Part shown: positions 3,055-9,673 of the stretch, in pieces
How positions within the stretch are numbered: the first letter of the stretch is position 1
How the letters are laid out: each line of letters opens with the position of its first letter
Assembly (NCBI GenBank): GCA_004299235.1
Contig: SCQL01000024.1
Location: 1-64,000 of the forward strand
Reading direction: 5' to 3'
Length of the DNA: 64,000 nucleotides
DNA from: a bacterium
GTDB lineage: Bacteria > Chloroflexota > Dormibacteria > Dormibacterales > Dormibacteraceae
Notes under the pieces: generated by a model
Told to the model about the DNA's origin: nothing
The model's input: the letters and a program-made list of their open reading frames with translations, nothing else
Databases searched by the model: none
Position numbers and translations under genes: made by a program

Positions 3055-4380
3055 TCAGGCCGCGGCCGGTGCCGGAAGGTAGGGCATCGGGTCGACGACC
3101 TGGCCCTCCACCCGCAGCTCGAAGTGCACGTGCGGCCCGGTCGAGTACCCCGTCGATCCCTCCAGCCCGACACGCTGCCCGCGCACGACCAGGTCATCGA
3201 CCAAGACGTCGGTCTCGAGCAGGTGGCCGTACAGGGTCATGATCCCGCCGCCGTGGGCGACGACGACGTAGTTCCCGTAGCCCACCCCCGAGTGGCCGAC
3301 CGCAACCACGATGCCGTCGGCGGCGGCCAGCACCGGGGTGCCCAGCGGAGCGGCGATGTCGATGCCGGTGTGGAAGTGGGGGAACGGTCCGAGCGGGGGT
3401 TCGAGGACGAGGTTGGTCGGGCCGAACGGCTGCGTCACGCGCGCGCCGGCCATCGGCCAGGCAAGGGTCAATCCGGCCACGGTCCTGCTCGCCGGCAGTT
3501 CCCCCGCCACCAGCGCGAGCCCCGTCCCCACCTGGGCCTGGTTCCATGCCTGCTGGTACGCCCTTTGAAGCAGGTCCAGCTCCTCCTGCTCGAGCAGCTG
3601 GGCGAGGTTGGCCGTCACCTCGGGAGGCTGGTTTTGCAGCCCGGCGGCAGCGTCCTGAAGGCGCTTCGTGAGCCCGGCCAGCTGGTTGTTGATGCCGTTC
3701 TGGGTGTTCATCAGCACCTCCAGAGCGCCGAGGTCGGCGACGAGCCCGTCTCGCAGCGCGTGCTCGCGGTCCAGCTCGGCTGCGAGGTCGGCACGGTCGG
3801 CCTGCAGCTTTTCGAGGTCGGCTTGCAGCCGCGCCTGCAAGGCGTGCGCGCGCTGGCCGGCGACGACAAGGTCGGCGGTGGCGAGGATCGCGTCACGCAG
3901 GTTTCCGGTACGAGCGACGAGGACCAATAGCGAATCGGGCTGCCGGTAGATCGCTCGCGCCATGGCGGCGACCTGCGTCCTCTCGACTTCGATGCGGTCC
4001 TGGGTCTGCGAGATCTGCGTGTCGAGCTGGGAGATCCGGTCTTCGAGGCCGGCGATGCGAGCCTCCTCGCGGGCGATCTGGTCGGTCAAGATCCGCTCGC
4101 TCGCGGCTGTCTGGTCGAGTACGAGCGCCAGCTGCTGCTCGGCGGTCAGCGCTTGGGCGAGGTCGCCGCCAAGCTGTGCCCGCAGATGGTCGTACGCGGC
4201 CTGCGTCGCGTCCGGCGCCGGGCAGGTCGGCGCGGGCGAGGCCAGCCGTGCGCCGGAAGCCGCACTGGTGCCCGCTGGACTGGGCGACGGGCACGTCGAC
4301 GGATTCGCGGCGCCTGCGCTCGAGACCTGCAGCGCGAGCAGCGCGCCGGCCAGGGCCAGCGCGCCCAATCCGCGAGTCAC
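3055..4380 (-). CDS. Secreted coiled-coil M23 peptidase (EnvC/PcsB/RipC-like), FtsEX partner
   Basis: A 441-residue exported protein. Residues 1-24 form a signal peptide (MTRGLGALALAGALLALQVS) ending near AGA-A. Residues about 60-270 are rich in Leu, Ala, Gln and Glu heptads, a long coiled coil of the kind that docks to FtsX. The C-terminal LytM/M23 domain has zinc ligands in HTGIDIAAP and GPHVHFELR, so the catalytic site looks intact. Its ATG overlaps the stop of the FtsE-FtsX fusion gene by 4 nt. In characterised bacteria FtsEX activates a coiled-coil amidase activator or peptidoglycan hydrolase (EnvC, PcsB, RipC) at the septum; genomic coupling here argues for the same job. Because the zinc ligands are kept, this one is probably a hydrolase itself, not only an activator. 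Confidence 0.9.
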   Translation of the reverse strand: MTRGLGALALAGALLALQVSSAGAANPSTCPSPSPAGTSAASGARLASPAPTCPAPDATQAAYDHLRAQLGGDLAQALTAEQQLALVLDQTAASERILTDQIAREEARIAGLEDRISQLDTQISQTQDRIEVERTQVAAMARAIYRQPDSLLVLVARTGNLRDAILATADLVVAGQRAHALQARLQADLEKLQADRADLAAELDREHALRDGLVADLGALEVLMNTQNGINNQLAGLTKRLQDAAAGLQNQPPEVTANLAQLLEQEELDLLQRAYQQAWNQAQVGTGLALVAGELPASRTVAGLTLAWPMAGARVTQPFGPTNLVLEPPLGPFPHFHTGIDIAAPLGTPVLAAADGIVVAVGHSGVGYGNYVVVAHGGGIMTLYGHLLETDVLVDDLVVRGQRVGLEGSTGYSTGPHVHFELRVEGQVVDPMPYLPAPAAA

Positions 4381-6185
4381 GCGCGGATCTGCCGGAAGCC
4401 GAGCGTCGCGGTCAGCGCGCCCAGGACCAGGCCGGCCGCGATGACGGTGGCGAGCACGAGCTGGACCAGATCGGGACCGACGCCCGGCAGGACCTGGGCG
4501 TACGTGGCGGATGCCAAGTGATTGGCGAGGAGCCAGGCGCCCGCGACCGCCGCGGCCGCCAGCGCGCCGGCCAGCGCGCCGGTCGTGAGGCCCTCGACGA
4601 CGAACGGCCCGCGAAGCATCCAGCCCGCGGCGCCCAGGAGGCGCGTCACCTTCACCTCATCCCGTCGCGCCGCGGCAATGCCGCGCATCGCGTTGGCGAT
4701 CACCGCGTAAGCGACCAAAGCGAACAGCAGGACGAGCCCGCCGCCCACCGCGCCGGCGACGAGCGCGACCCGGCGGAGCCGCGAATAGGTGTCTGGATCG
4801 TAGGAGGTCGGGTACGAGGAGTCCACAGCTGGATCTCCGGTGACGGAGGCGGCGACCACTCCGACGTTCGTCACCTGCCGAACCTGGACGTCAAGGCTCG
4901 CTGGAAACGGGTTGGTCGTGCTCAGGCTCGCCAGGTTGTCGAGACCGGGATGGCTGCCCGCCTCGGCCAGCGCCGCCTCGGGGCTCAACTCGGTGACCGA
5001 AGCCACCCTGGGGTCCGCGACGAGGCGAGCCTTGAGCGCCGACACGGCATCAGGCGTCGCGCCCGCTGCCAGGTAGACGCGCACGATCGAGGCCTGCGCG
5101 GCCTGCTGGGCCGCGACGCGGTCGAGGGCAAGCCCGACCAGGGCGAGCGCCCCGCAAAAGACGAGCAGCAAGGCCATCGATCCCAGCGCCGGTGCGGTCA
5201 GTCGCAGGTCACGAGTCCAGCTGCGCAGCCCGCCGAACACCACGAGCCGGAAGCTGTTGGCGCACAGCGCAACCAGCCGGCGCCAGACCGGAAGTCGGGA
5301 CGGCCGCGCCGCGCGCTTTCGCGGCCGCTCGTGGACTGGAAGCAGGCGGCGCCACAGCGGTTGCGCGGCATGACCGCCATTGCTTTCAAGCTGCCGCGAC
5401 CCGTTCAGCAGGACCTTGCCGCTGGGGAGGCGCAGCAGGCGGCTCGAGCGGAACGTTGGCTGATGCGTGGCGACGATGACCGCGGTGCCGTTGGCGGCCG
5501 CCTCTTCGAGGAGGCGCATGACGACCTGAGCGTTGTCCTCGTCGACGCCAGCGAGGGGCTCGTCGGCGAGGAGCACTCGAGGGCGTGCGGCCAGCGCGCG
5601 GGCGACCGCCACGCGCTGCCTCTCGCCGGCTGAGAGCTGGTGCGGGTACGAGCGCCGCTTGTGCAGCAGGCCGAGGGACTCCAGCGCTTCGAGCGCCCGC
5701 TGCCTGGTGGTGCGGTATGGCAGCTGCGGAGCGCGCACCTGCAATGCCAGGACGAGGTTCTCGAGGACGTCGAGTCGCGGCAGCAGCCGCTGCTCCTGAA
5801 AGATGAAGGCGACGTCCCTGCGGATCCGTCCCAGGCCGCGGCGCCACCACCGATGCAGACCGCGGCCTTCCACCCACACCTCGCCACGGCTCGGGCGCAG
5901 CTGGCCGTGGACGAGGCGCAGAAATGTCGTTTTGCCTGAGCCGCTCGGACCCGTAACCTCGACCAACTCGCCGGGTGTGACGGTGAAGCTGATATCGCTC
6001 AGCACAGCCGTCCGGCCGAAGGATTTGGTCACCCGCGTGAGCCGGACCACCGGCTCCGTCGCCACCGCGTCGGCGGCCGGAGGGCGATGATGTGCCGCCC
6101 CGTTGTTTTTCGCGCGCATCCCATCGGTGGCCGCGCCGTGCTTCGAGACGCGCGCGCCGTCAGTGGCTACCTGTCGGTATCCCAC
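4377..6185 (-). CDS. FtsE-FtsX fusion protein (cell-division ABC transporter-like, single chain)
   Basis: One uninterrupted 602-codon frame encodes both halves of FtsEX. Residues about 46-265 are the FtsE ATPase: Walker A GPSGSGKTT (79-87), Q-loop Gln130, signature LSAGERQRVAVARAL, Walker B VLLADEP and switch His241. A basic linker (about 266-300) leads to FtsX: first TM helix about 332-352, an extracytoplasmic domain about 355-470, then three TM helices to the C-terminus, with the cytoplasmic loop AARRDEVKVTRLLGA. In most bacteria FtsE and FtsX are separate polypeptides. The start is GTG 6185; ATG at residue 23 is possible. A TACTCT hexamer at 6201-6206 could be its -10. The next gene, overlapping by 4 nt, is the likely substrate hydrolase. 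All ATPase motifs are intact. Confidence 0.93.
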   Translation of the reverse strand: MGYRQVATDGARVSKHGAATDGMRAKNNGAAHHRPPAADAVATEPVVRLTRVTKSFGRTAVLSDISFTVTPGELVEVTGPSGSGKTTFLRLVHGQLRPSRGEVWVEGRGLHRWWRRGLGRIRRDVAFIFQEQRLLPRLDVLENLVLALQVRAPQLPYRTTRQRALEALESLGLLHKRRSYPHQLSAGERQRVAVARALAARPRVLLADEPLAGVDEDNAQVVMRLLEEAAANGTAVIVATHQPTFRSSRLLRLPSGKVLLNGSRQLESNGGHAAQPLWRRLLPVHERPRKRAARPSRLPVWRRLVALCANSFRLVVFGGLRSWTRDLRLTAPALGSMALLLVFCGALALVGLALDRVAAQQAAQASIVRVYLAAGATPDAVSALKARLVADPRVASVTELSPEAALAEAGSHPGLDNLASLSTTNPFPASLDVQVRQVTNVGVVAASVTGDPAVDSSYPTSYDPDTYSRLRRVALVAGAVGGGLVLLFALVAYAVIANAMRGIAAARRDEVKVTRLLGAAGWMLRGPFVVEGLTTGALAGALAAAAVAGAWLLANHLASATYAQVLPGVGPDLVQLVLATVIAAGLVLGALTATLGFRQIRA

Positions 6186-6243
6186 CCCTTTCCACAGGAC
6201 AGAGTAGTCCTCGCCACGCTCAGGAAAACCTCAGGTTTCGATG

Positions 6244-6262
6244 ACCGCCGGCGAGGCCGGCG
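6244..6262. repeat. GC-rich hairpin in the ftsEX-regulator intergenic region
   Basis: CCGCCGGC and GCCGGCGG pair perfectly around a GAG loop in the divergent region 6186-6377. A second small inverted repeat (AAACCT/AGGTTT) lies just upstream at about 6225-6239. No T-run follows, so neither is an obvious terminator. A TATAAG hexamer near 6323 could be a -10 for the downstream regulator. Confidence 0.4.
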
Positions 6263-6377
6263 GCCCACCGGCGCCTGCGGCTTGCAGGGTGGCGCAGGTG
6301 TTCGTGGTCGTTCAGAAATCTGTATAAGGCACACTAGGAGTCCGAGAATCTGTGGTGTTATTTACACGAGGGTTGGC

Positions 6378-8177
6378 GTGAGGAGCCGGCATAAGTTGAG
6401 GGACGTGCGGATCGAAGGTGGGGGGGAGGACTCGAGCCTTGCCGCTCGGGAGCTGAGCTTTCTCGTGCGGCTCGCTCAGGCGGCGGCTTCGACGCAACGG
6501 CCGGACGAGCTGCTGGAGCTCATCATCCGCGAGGCCACGTCGGCGACGGGTACCGACGTGTGTTCGCTTTACCTGGTTACACCCCGCGGCCGCGAGCTGC
6601 TGCTGACGGCCACGAACGGGCTCAACGAAAACATGGTGGGCAAGGTGGTCATGCGGTTGGGCGAGGGCATCACGGGCTGGGTCGCTGAGAGCCGGCAGCC
6701 GACGGTGGTGCCGGATGTGAGCCAGGAGCCGCATTGGAAGTGGGTGCCGGGCCTCGACGAGGACCGCTTCCAGTCCATGCTCTCGGTGCCCATCGAATCG
6801 GGCCCCCGTCTCGTCGGCGTCCTCAACGTGCAGAGCGCCGCGAAGCGCGACTTCGACTCGGGCGACATCGACTTCCTGCGCGCCATCGCGGGCCAGGTGG
6901 CGGGGATCCTCGAGCGGAGCGAGCTGCAGCGGCGCATGGAGGCTCAGCTCGCGGAGATCCAGATGTCGCATGACATCCACGAGCGCTTCACGAAGCTCTC
7001 GCTCGAAGGCGCCGGCATCCGATCGATCCTCGAGGTTGTCGGCTCGCTGGCGGGCGGGCGGGCTGCGCTCTACTCGGCGGACGGGTACCGGGTGCGGGGA
7101 GCGGGGGAGTCGACCGACGGCATGCCCCAGCGCATTCACGTCCCCAGCCCGCTCGCCCAGGCCGGGGCCAGAGAGGTCCGGATCAACGCGGGACGACCGG
7201 CGAGGGCGCTGGACGTGGTGCCGGTGCGCGCTGGCTCCGACGTGCTGGGGCTGCTCGCGGTCGGCGTGGATGAGAAGACGGTGGATTCCCACGGCCGGCG
7301 CCGTGCCCTCGAGCACGGGTCGACGGTGCTGGCGCTGGAGCTCTCCAAGGAGCGGGCCGCGGCCGAGGTCGAGCGCCGGCTGCGCGGCGATCTGGTCGAA
7401 GAGGTCCTTGCCGGCGGACTCGAAGCTGACGAGGCCGAGCGTGTCGCGCGCCAGGCGGAGCGCTTGGGCCACAGACTCCCGCAGCGCGCGTGGGTCGTCG
7501 TCCTGGAACCGGACGACGACGACACAGAGGCGGCGCTCGGAGCGCGCGGCCAGCAGGACCGGCTGGACGGCGCGCTCAGCGGCCTGATCCGCTCCCGGCT
7601 GCCCGGCGCCCTCACCCTGGTCCGCTCCGCGTCAGCGGTGTTCCTGGTCCCCGACGAGTTGGCTTCCGACCTGCCGACGGTGGAGAAGCTCGCCGGCCAG
7701 GTCCTGGCCGCGGCCGCCCCGGTGATGAAGCCCGGCACCGCCTCGGTCGGGATCGGGAACGTGGCCAATGGTGTCGGCGAGCTCGCCCGGTCGCACATCG
7801 AAGCCCGACAGGCGCTGCGGCTCACGCGCCGCGCCGGTGGGCGCGGCCGGGTCGCGTCCTATCGCTCGCTGGGAGCGTTCCGGCTGTTGCTGGAGGTGCA
7901 GAGCCCCGACGCGCTGCGCCGCTTCGTCGACGAGCTGCTCGGCACGCTGCTGCAGTACGCGCAATCACGGGATACGCCGCTGCTGGAGACGCTCGAGGCT
8001 CTTTCGGCGGCGCGCTGGGTGCGGCGGGCGGCCGCCCGGCAGCTGGGGATCCACATCAACTCGATGAGCTACCGGGTGGAGCGGATCCAGGCGCTCACCG
8101 GCCTGCAGCTGGACGACCCGGAAACGCGAGTCGCGATCTCCATCGCCCTGCGTGCCCGCGCCATGCTCGGGATGTAG
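6378..8177 (+). CDS. GAF-domain transcriptional regulator with PucR/CdaR-type C-terminal HTH
   Basis: From GTG 6378 this is a 599-residue cytoplasmic regulator. Residues about 15-190 are a GAF sensor domain (DELLELIIREATSATGTDVCSLYLV...MLSVPIESGPRLVGVLNVQ). A middle section of about 190 residues follows, then a CdaR-like region. The C-terminus carries the PucR-family helix-turn-helix (AAARQLGIHINSMSYRVERI, then LDDPETRVAISIALRA). The longer open frame back to 6087 is antisense to ftsE and has no homology, so GTG 6378, 5 nt after GAGGG, is preferred. It converges on glnA across a shared terminator. PucR-type proteins usually control catabolic or nitrogen genes, so a role in regulating the adjacent nitrogen genes is plausible but unproven. 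Confidence 0.85.
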   Translation: MRSRHKLRDVRIEGGGEDSSLAARELSFLVRLAQAAASTQRPDELLELIIREATSATGTDVCSLYLVTPRGRELLLTATNGLNENMVGKVVMRLGEGITGWVAESRQPTVVPDVSQEPHWKWVPGLDEDRFQSMLSVPIESGPRLVGVLNVQSAAKRDFDSGDIDFLRAIAGQVAGILERSELQRRMEAQLAEIQMSHDIHERFTKLSLEGAGIRSILEVVGSLAGGRAALYSADGYRVRGAGESTDGMPQRIHVPSPLAQAGAREVRINAGRPARALDVVPVRAGSDVLGLLAVGVDEKTVDSHGRRRALEHGSTVLALELSKERAAAEVERRLRGDLVEEVLAGGLEADEAERVARQAERLGHRLPQRAWVVVLEPDDDDTEAALGARGQQDRLDGALSGLIRSRLPGALTLVRSASAVFLVPDELASDLPTVEKLAGQVLAAAAPVMKPGTASVGIGNVANGVGELARSHIEARQALRLTRRAGGRGRVASYRSLGAFRLLLEVQSPDALRRFVDELLGTLLQYAQSRDTPLLETLEALSAARWVRRAAARQLGIHINSMSYRVERIQALTGLQLDDPETRVAISIALRARAMLGM

Positions 8178-8186
8178 AGAAACAAA

Positions 8187-8213
8187 AAGGGCCCCGGTCG
8201 AACCGGGGCCCTT
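8187..8213 (-). terminator. Strong intrinsic terminator for glnA (shared by convergent genes)
   Basis: A perfect 12-bp stem (AAGGGCCCCGGT with ACCGGGGCCCTT) closes a 3-nt loop. On the minus strand it is followed by TTTTTGTTT, a good U-tract, so it terminates glnA, whose stop is at 8228. On the plus strand it lies 10 nt after the regulator's stop but lacks a T-run. Confidence 0.88.
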
Positions 8214-8227
8214 CGGAGAGTGGTCCT

Positions 8228-9673
8228 TTAAACGTCGCTGTAGAGCATGAACTCCCACGGGTGCGGCCGCAGAGCCACCTGCTCGACCTCCCGCTTGCGC
8301 TTGTAGTCGATCCAGGTGTCGATGACGTCCTTGGTGAAGACCCCGCCCTCCAGGAGGAACGCGTGGTCATTCTCGAGCGCGTCCAGGGCCTCGCCGAGCG
8401 AACCCGGCACCGACTTGATCTTGGCCTTCTCTTCGCCGTCGAGCTCGTAGATGTCCTTGTCGACCGGCTCCGGAGGCAGGATCTTGTGCTTGATCCCGTC
8501 GAGTCCGGCCATCAGGCAGGCGGCGAACGCGAGGTAGGGGTTCGCGGCCGGGTCAGGCGAGCGGAACTCGACACGCTTGGTCTTGGGGTCGGTCGAGTAC
8601 ATCGGGATCCGGACGCACGCGGAGCGGTTTCGCTTCGAATAGACGAGGTTGATCGGCGCCTCGTAGCCGGGGACCAGCCGTCGATACGAGTTGGTCGTCG
8701 GCGCGCAAATGGCAAGCAGCGCCGGCGCGTGCTTGAGCAGTCCGCCGATGTAATGCACGGCGGTCTGGCTCAGGCCGGCATAGCCGTCCGCATCGGCGAA
8801 CAGGTTCTGCCCGTCCTTCCACAGGCTCTGGTGCACGTGCATCCCGGACCCGTTGTCCTGGAACAGCGGCTTGGGCATGAAGTTCGCCACGTAGCCGTGC
8901 TGCGCCGCGACGTTCTTGATCACGTATTTGAAGACCATGAGCTTGTCGCCCATCTTGGTCAGGGAGTCGAAGCGCATGTCGATCTCAGCCTGGCCGGCCG
9001 TGCCGACCTCGTGGTGCTGGACCTCGACCCGCACGCCCGCCTCGAGCAGCTTGAGCATGATCTCGGAGCGGAGATCCTGGAACTTGTCTGTCGGCGGCAC
9101 CGGGAAGTAGCCCTCCTTGTGCCGCGGCCGGAAGGCCAGGTTGGGCTCGGAGTTCTTGCCCGAGTTCCAGATGCCCTCCTCCGAATCGATGTGGTAGTAG
9201 CCGCTGTACGCGTTCTGGTCGAAGCGGAGCGAGTTGAAGATGTAGAACTCCGCCTCCGGCCCCCAGTAGCTGACGTCGGCGATCCCCGACCGCTTGAGAT
9301 GCTCCTCCGCCTTCCTGGCGATGAAGCGCGCGTCGCGGGTGTACGGCTCGCGATTGATGGGGTCGATGACGTCACAGATGAGAAACAGGGTCTTGTGCGA
9401 TAGGCAGGGGTCGATCGTCGCGGAGTCCGGGTCCGGGATGAGCAGCATGTCGCTCTCATCGATCGCCTGGAAGCCGCGGATGCTGGAGCCGTCGAATCCG
9501 AGCCCGTTGGTGAAGCTGTCAACCTGCAGCTCACCGAGCGGCAGGCTGAAATGCTGCCACGTGCCGGGAAGGTCGATGAAGCGGACGTCGACGATCTCGA
9601 CGCCCTGGGCTTTCGCCCGCTCGATCACCTCGCGCGGGCTGGTCTTGCTGACGGACTTGGTCTGTATCGCCAT
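8228..9673 (-). CDS. glnA: Glutamine synthetase type I (GSI-beta)
   Basis: A 481-residue GlnA that condenses glutamate, ammonium and ATP to glutamine as a cytoplasmic dodecamer. Visible signatures are FDGSSIRGF, the catalytic-metal region EAEFYIF, the ATP-binding KPLFQDNGSGMHVHQS, and NRSACVRIP. The adenylylation site motif K-I-x5-V-D-K-D-I-Y is present, with Tyr409 in DKDIYEL, so it belongs to the GSI-beta class that can be adenylylated. AGGAGG (minus strand, 9678-9683) sits 4 nt before the ATG. It is divergent from amtB-glnK, grouping ammonium transport, sensing and assimilation. An intrinsic terminator follows the stop. Confidence 0.98.
   Translation of the reverse strand: MAIQTKSVSKTSPREVIERAKAQGVEIVDVRFIDLPGTWQHFSLPLGELQVDSFTNGLGFDGSSIRGFQAIDESDMLLIPDPDSATIDPCLSHKTLFLICDVIDPINREPYTRDARFIARKAEEHLKRSGIADVSYWGPEAEFYIFNSLRFDQNAYSGYYHIDSEEGIWNSGKNSEPNLAFRPRHKEGYFPVPPTDKFQDLRSEIMLKLLEAGVRVEVQHHEVGTAGQAEIDMRFDSLTKMGDKLMVFKYVIKNVAAQHGYVANFMPKPLFQDNGSGMHVHQSLWKDGQNLFADADGYAGLSQTAVHYIGGLLKHAPALLAICAPTTNSYRRLVPGYEAPINLVYSKRNRSACVRIPMYSTDPKTKRVEFRSPDPAANPYLAFAACLMAGLDGIKHKILPPEPVDKDIYELDGEEKAKIKSVPGSLGEALDALENDHAFLLEGGVFTKDVIDTWIDYKRKREVEQVALRPHPWEFMLYSDV

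Follow-up and report, generated by a model that had tools for sequence, protein, structure and literature searches.

An FtsE–FtsX fusion overlapping an M23 peptidase gene in one family of Dormibacterota

FtsEX systems link ATP turnover to peptidoglycan hydrolysis. The systems of E. coli, V. cholerae, S. pneumoniae and M. tuberculosis combine an FtsE-type ATPase with a permease that carries an FtsX extracellular domain (PF18075). Their composition is E2X2 (PMC8277102). ATP drives a movement of the extracellular FtsX domains, and this frees a hydrolase that is otherwise restrained through its coiled coil (PMC11627006, PMC8277102). Reviews describe FtsEX as encoded by separate genes, and MacB, a type VII ABC transporter, as a fused protein (PMC8277102, PMC5985334). 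The hydrolytic partners differ among systems. EnvC has a degenerate LytM site without zinc ligands and activates amidases (PMC11627006). RipC, PcsB and CwlO are hydrolases activated directly by FtsEX, and their catalytic domains are of the NlpC/P60 or CHAP type.

The window analysed here is the whole stretch of 64,000 nucleotides of Dormibacteraceae DNA. One of its loci (table 1) resembles FtsEX in joining an FtsE-type ATPase to a PF18075-bearing permease and in adjoining the gene for a coiled-coil peptidoglycan hydrolase. It departs from FtsEX in being a single polypeptide, in its signature LSAGE, in the absence of PTGNLD, in an ATPase that scores below the FtsE cut-off and in being a paralogue beside a normal copy. 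The initial annotation had described an uninterrupted frame with FtsE ATPase motifs and a full FtsX membrane and extracellular module. This description is borne out: both modules lie in the 602 codons, and the frame is common to relatives. In a Pfam scan of the fused protein, ABC_tran exceeds its cut-off at residues 62–212 (1.6e-33), as do FtsX_ECD (PF18075) at residues 368–455 (6.2e-11, 43.2 bits versus a cut-off of 23.5) and the FtsX permease domain (PF02687) at residues 484–599 (6.6e-07, 29.8 bits versus 25.5). Among 20 homologues, which share the start position, 19 begin with GTG and one with ATG. Two features back the start call: the position is conserved and has a G after it, and most relatives carry a TAATCT-like box a short way upstream. 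In most fused loci the box lies 10–15 nt 5' of the start codon and AAGG abuts the start; the window counterpart is TACTCT (region 6186–6230). The box and the AAGG spacing suggest that the fused gene may have a near-leaderless transcript.

Table 1. Coordinates of the fused gene, its modules and the adjoining peptidase gene in the window.
Feature	Position	Strand	Remarks
M23 peptidase, 441 aa, N-terminal signal-like helix and coiled coil	3055..4380	minus	GTG start overlaps the stop of the fused gene
M23 catalytic domain, residues 336–431; HTGID, YGH and HVH intact	3088..3375	minus	PF01551, 5.8e-31
Coiled-coil part of the M23 protein, residues 58–292	3505..4209	minus	helices in predicted model
Fused FtsE–FtsX gene	4377..6185	minus	GTG start; 602 aa; one open frame of 602 codons
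FtsX module, residues 300–602	4380..5288	minus	long helices that would fit four transmembrane segments
FtsX extracellular domain, residues 366–465, NPFPASLDV motif	4791..5090	minus	PF18075; motif comparison
Linker, residues 261–299, basic, predicted disordered	5289..5405	minus	39 residues; pLDDT <50 at 262–298
FtsE-type ATPase module, residues 46–260	5406..6050	minus	Pfam, NCBIfam, motif table, structure match
ABC signature LSAGE	5622..5636	minus	A in place of first G of LSGG; every fused copy

The ATPase motifs are all present: Walker A (GPSGSGKTT), the Q-loop glutamine, the signature, Walker B (LLADE) and the H-loop histidine. The signature is LSAGE and not LSGGE. The motif table has LSAGE in all fused proteins and LSGG in all split copies compared, including a split sister pair from one relative, genome G004. 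The FtsE-typical stretch DEPTGNLD is altered in the fused copies and reads DEPLAGVD in the window. LSAG-type signatures occur in some working ABC ATPases, for instance CcmA, which suggests that the fused ATPase may be modified rather than dead. TIGR02673 (FtsE) is its top NCBIfam model (2.1e-58), but the score of 197.5 bits falls short of the equivalog cut-off of 264.85, whereas the genome's canonical FtsE, at 281.4 bits, passes. A second fused protein scores 192.5, the split G004 sister 202.0 and an FtsE of type B (see below) 251.1. Since the cut-off is missed, the module is classed here as FtsE-like and not as an FtsE equivalog. Because the G004 sister also scores low while still split, the divergence of the fused lineage from the FtsE norm predates the fusion. 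Given the low score, the changed signature and the loss of PTGNLD, the ATPase cycle of the fused module may differ from that of FtsE.

The fused protein is not the only FtsEX system of this cell. The same genome also carries an ordinary split operon, secA-prfB-ftsE-ftsX-M23-ctpA (L009), in which ftsE and ftsX are separate. Identity between the fused protein and this canonical copy is 39% in FtsE and 30% in FtsX. The fused gene is an additional FtsEX paralogue, specific to this family. Many relatives have a third, split module (type B) beside another M23 gene. The family genomes listed have two to five FtsX_ECD matches each (two in the window genome), and every non-family genome among the matches listed for a sample of the phylum has one. 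This multiplication of FtsEX–peptidase modules is unusual, and it makes the family a system for asking how parallel FtsEX–hydrolase modules avoid cross-talk. Further split paralogues in the family belong to types B and D (L059–L078, L089–L094), and several have their own M23 gene.

The site of action of the fused module, a septal role included, is putative. There is a nearly even chance that the same module serves a non-septal process, such as elongation, a stress response or some other envelope process, while the canonical copy takes care of septation. In favour of this, the canonical copy has kept its place in the conserved operon, and the fused locus lies beside genes for a PucR/GAF regulator, glutamine synthetase and a two-component pair, as it does in several relatives. 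A precedent for non-septal work would be FtsEX of B. subtilis, which Meisner et al. reportedly found in 2013 to act with CwlO in elongation. Set against this, a neighbourhood is by itself no proof of co-regulation. In the window the flanking genes, including those for the histidine kinase and response regulator of the two-component pair, occupy 404–2552 and 6087–9673. The PucR gene is kept near the fused module in many relatives, and the response regulator and kinase genes or the glutamine synthetase gene in some.

The start of the M23 gene and the stop of the fused gene share four nucleotides, GTGA, and every one of the 19 fused loci whose M23 start could be read, the window among them, retains an NTGA overlap. 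The coupling to a coiled-coil M23 peptidase gene that was noticed in the window is conserved. The partner resembles EnvC in its signal-like N-terminus, long coiled coil and C-terminal LytM/M23 domain, and in profile alignment it is collinear with full-length EnvC. The predicted model (mean pLDDT 62.7) shows a long coiled coil followed by an M23 domain at the C-terminus; its top structure matches, with low TM-scores, are EnvC in 8tzl (V. cholerae) and 6tpi (E. coli). The zinc-site residues HxxxD and HxH are intact in all complete copies of the alignment, unlike the degenerate site of EnvC, so the partner is likely to cleave peptidoglycan directly as an endopeptidase. It shares with RipC, PcsB and CwlO a coiled coil and an active-type hydrolase domain, and presumably control by its transporter. 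It differs from them in that the domain is M23, not NlpC/P60 or CHAP. By analogy with EnvC, PcsB and RipC, the tip of the coiled coil, AIYRQPDSLLVLVARTGNLRDAI, around M23 residues 147–160, is the likely contact site for FtsX. In the alignment the tip sequence differs among the fused, B and canonical types, as would be expected if each FtsX had its own M23 partner.

The predicted structure of the fused protein (mean pLDDT 68.9, pTM 0.42) has a low-confidence linker at 262–298. Residues 44–263 of the model superimpose on S. pneumoniae FtsE (6z4w) with a Z of 27.1 and an rmsd of 2.2 Å. The top full-length match found by Foldseek is MacB, and a second aligner pairs residues 43–602 with MacB 5gko (Z 26.2, 485 residues, rmsd 6.1). 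The layout is indeed that of MacB, a nucleotide-binding domain (NBD) joined N-terminally to a four-helix permease, and a homodimer would be expected. On these likenesses one could read the protein as an exporter of the MacB type that has an FtsX-like extracellular domain, and not as an FtsEX-like hydrolase switch. We consider this very unlikely. FtsX_ECD is matched by sequence, and the Pfam scan of the fused protein lists no match to the MacB periplasmic core domain. The solved chains nearest to the FtsX part in a sequence comparison are those of FtsX (8tzj, 2.4e-17). The permease also falls among FtsX paralogues in a tree, next to the split sister, and its partner gene encodes an M23 peptidase. 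MacB membership was rejected on the extracellular domain and the missing core match. The protein is instead filed as a fused, divergent FtsX-family paralogue with a MacB-like layout. Two points keep it from being filed as canonical FtsEX: it misses the FtsE equivalog cut-off, and it is a single chain.

The fused frame is widespread in the family. It runs without a stop in 29 of the 42 genomes of the window's family, across eight genera, and FtsE and FtsX domains lie in one frame in each of the 20 loci that were re-read. A scan of public contigs for fused loci, using family-specific patterns, gave the same one-frame result in 28 Dormibacterota/Chloroflexi contigs, apparently those of the other 28 of the 29 genomes. 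Between relatives dN/dS is 0.05–0.19 in the FtsE and FtsX parts, which are under purifying selection, and 0.10–0.53 in the linker. One relative (G032) has a frame broken at the first FtsX transmembrane segment, where the segment's sequence is missing and the frame changes (L093, 4591–6328); this could be an assembly error or a pseudogene. In another (G007) the fused gene is interrupted by contig ends. The metagenomic origin of the assemblies and the broken G032 copy might encourage the idea that the fused frame as a whole stems from an error in assembly or sequencing, or from pseudogene decay, yet with the same frame in 29 genomes of eight genera, low dN/dS and intact catalytic motifs the probability of this is close to nil. 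A sequencing error in particular is very unlikely, because the frame is common to relatives, dN/dS is low, the start is supported and the linker is free of starts.

The linker region of the window protein (residues 255–310) contains no in-frame ATG, GTG or TTG, and production of a separate FtsX from an internal start was rejected for this protein on that ground. In-frame start codons do occur in the linkers of most relatives, mostly without a Shine–Dalgarno-like sequence, and a separate FtsX may be made from an internal linker start there. The linker had been called basic in the initial annotation. This holds for the window genome and a few relatives, but in most the linker is longer, reaching 88 aa, and rich in Asn-Gly-(His).

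The history of the fusion can be read from the trees. In the FtsX tree the canonical copies cluster with FtsX of the class and phylum, and a clade specific to the family, still among FtsX proteins, unites the fused and type B copies with several of type D. The fused genes are monophyletic (98/90), with the split G004 pair as their sister (100/99). A quicker tree of FtsE repeats this branching order. Separate genes in a close relative, which the initial annotation took as a sign against the fusion, occur in this one sister lineage. In G004 ftsE and ftsX overlap by GTGA, and the FtsE C-terminal tail, with its NG repeats, resembles the linkers of fused relatives. Its split state is likely to be ancestral and not an error in the fusion call. 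As the fused genes form one clade with a still-split sister, a single fusion event is likely. The G004 sister suggests a route in which the future linker was already present as an FtsE tail: (i) the stop/start overlap between ftsX and an ftsE with an extended C-terminal tail was probably lost, and (ii) the tail would then have become the linker of the fused protein. No further FtsE–FtsX fusion was found among the matches listed for 110 genomes of the class or for a phylum sample of 400. Long FtsX frames occur at four loci outside the family (L185–L188), with FtsE in a different frame, and are therefore not fusions. The fusion has so far been seen in one family of uncultured Dormibacterota. A literature search of open-access papers, in which absence is weak evidence, found no report of one.

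Taken together, the locus is probably a second FtsEX–peptidase module with fused ftsE and ftsX, whose product would form a MacB-like homodimer that activates the M23 protein. The proposed mechanism follows that of FtsEX. (i) The working unit would be two fused chains, giving two NBDs and two FtsX modules arranged as in MacB. (ii) As the FtsE modules bind and hydrolyse ATP, the FtsX extracellular domains would be moved by mechanotransmission. (iii) These domains would grip the M23 protein, which is translationally coupled to the fused chain, by its coiled coil. (iv) Their movement would free the M23 catalytic domain, and peptidoglycan peptides would be cut. A conserved natural fusion of this kind offers a ready single-chain protein for work on the structure of the FtsEX switch and on its mechanics. 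The reason for fusing is a matter for inference. Fixing the ATPase–permease stoichiometry, as first suggested, is a weak rationale, because two fused chains give the E2X2 composition already known from split FtsEX. Prevention of mixing between paralogous halves is at least as plausible; a possible benefit of the linker is that an ATPase stays with its cognate permease where a cell has two or more FtsEX systems. The family also has split paralogues of types B and D side by side, so coexistence does not require fusion. It is a rather doubtful, though conceivable, extension that, in a lineage whose FtsEX–M23 modules have multiplied, fusion and the changed ABC signature together gave rise to an insulated switch, whose ATP cycle would be its own and whose peptidase would be distinct from that of canonical FtsEX.

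Some minor observations concern other joint frames and the window itself. In one relative (L062, G020; 5758–8013) a type B FtsX and its M23 protein share a 752-codon frame, probably an assembly artefact, as the frame crosses an ambiguous residue. In the window, a fragment of an HNH endonuclease gene (38–313) lies near the edge, and a tRNA-Arg (cct) gene on the plus strand (2710–2783) lies opposite a long spurious ORF.
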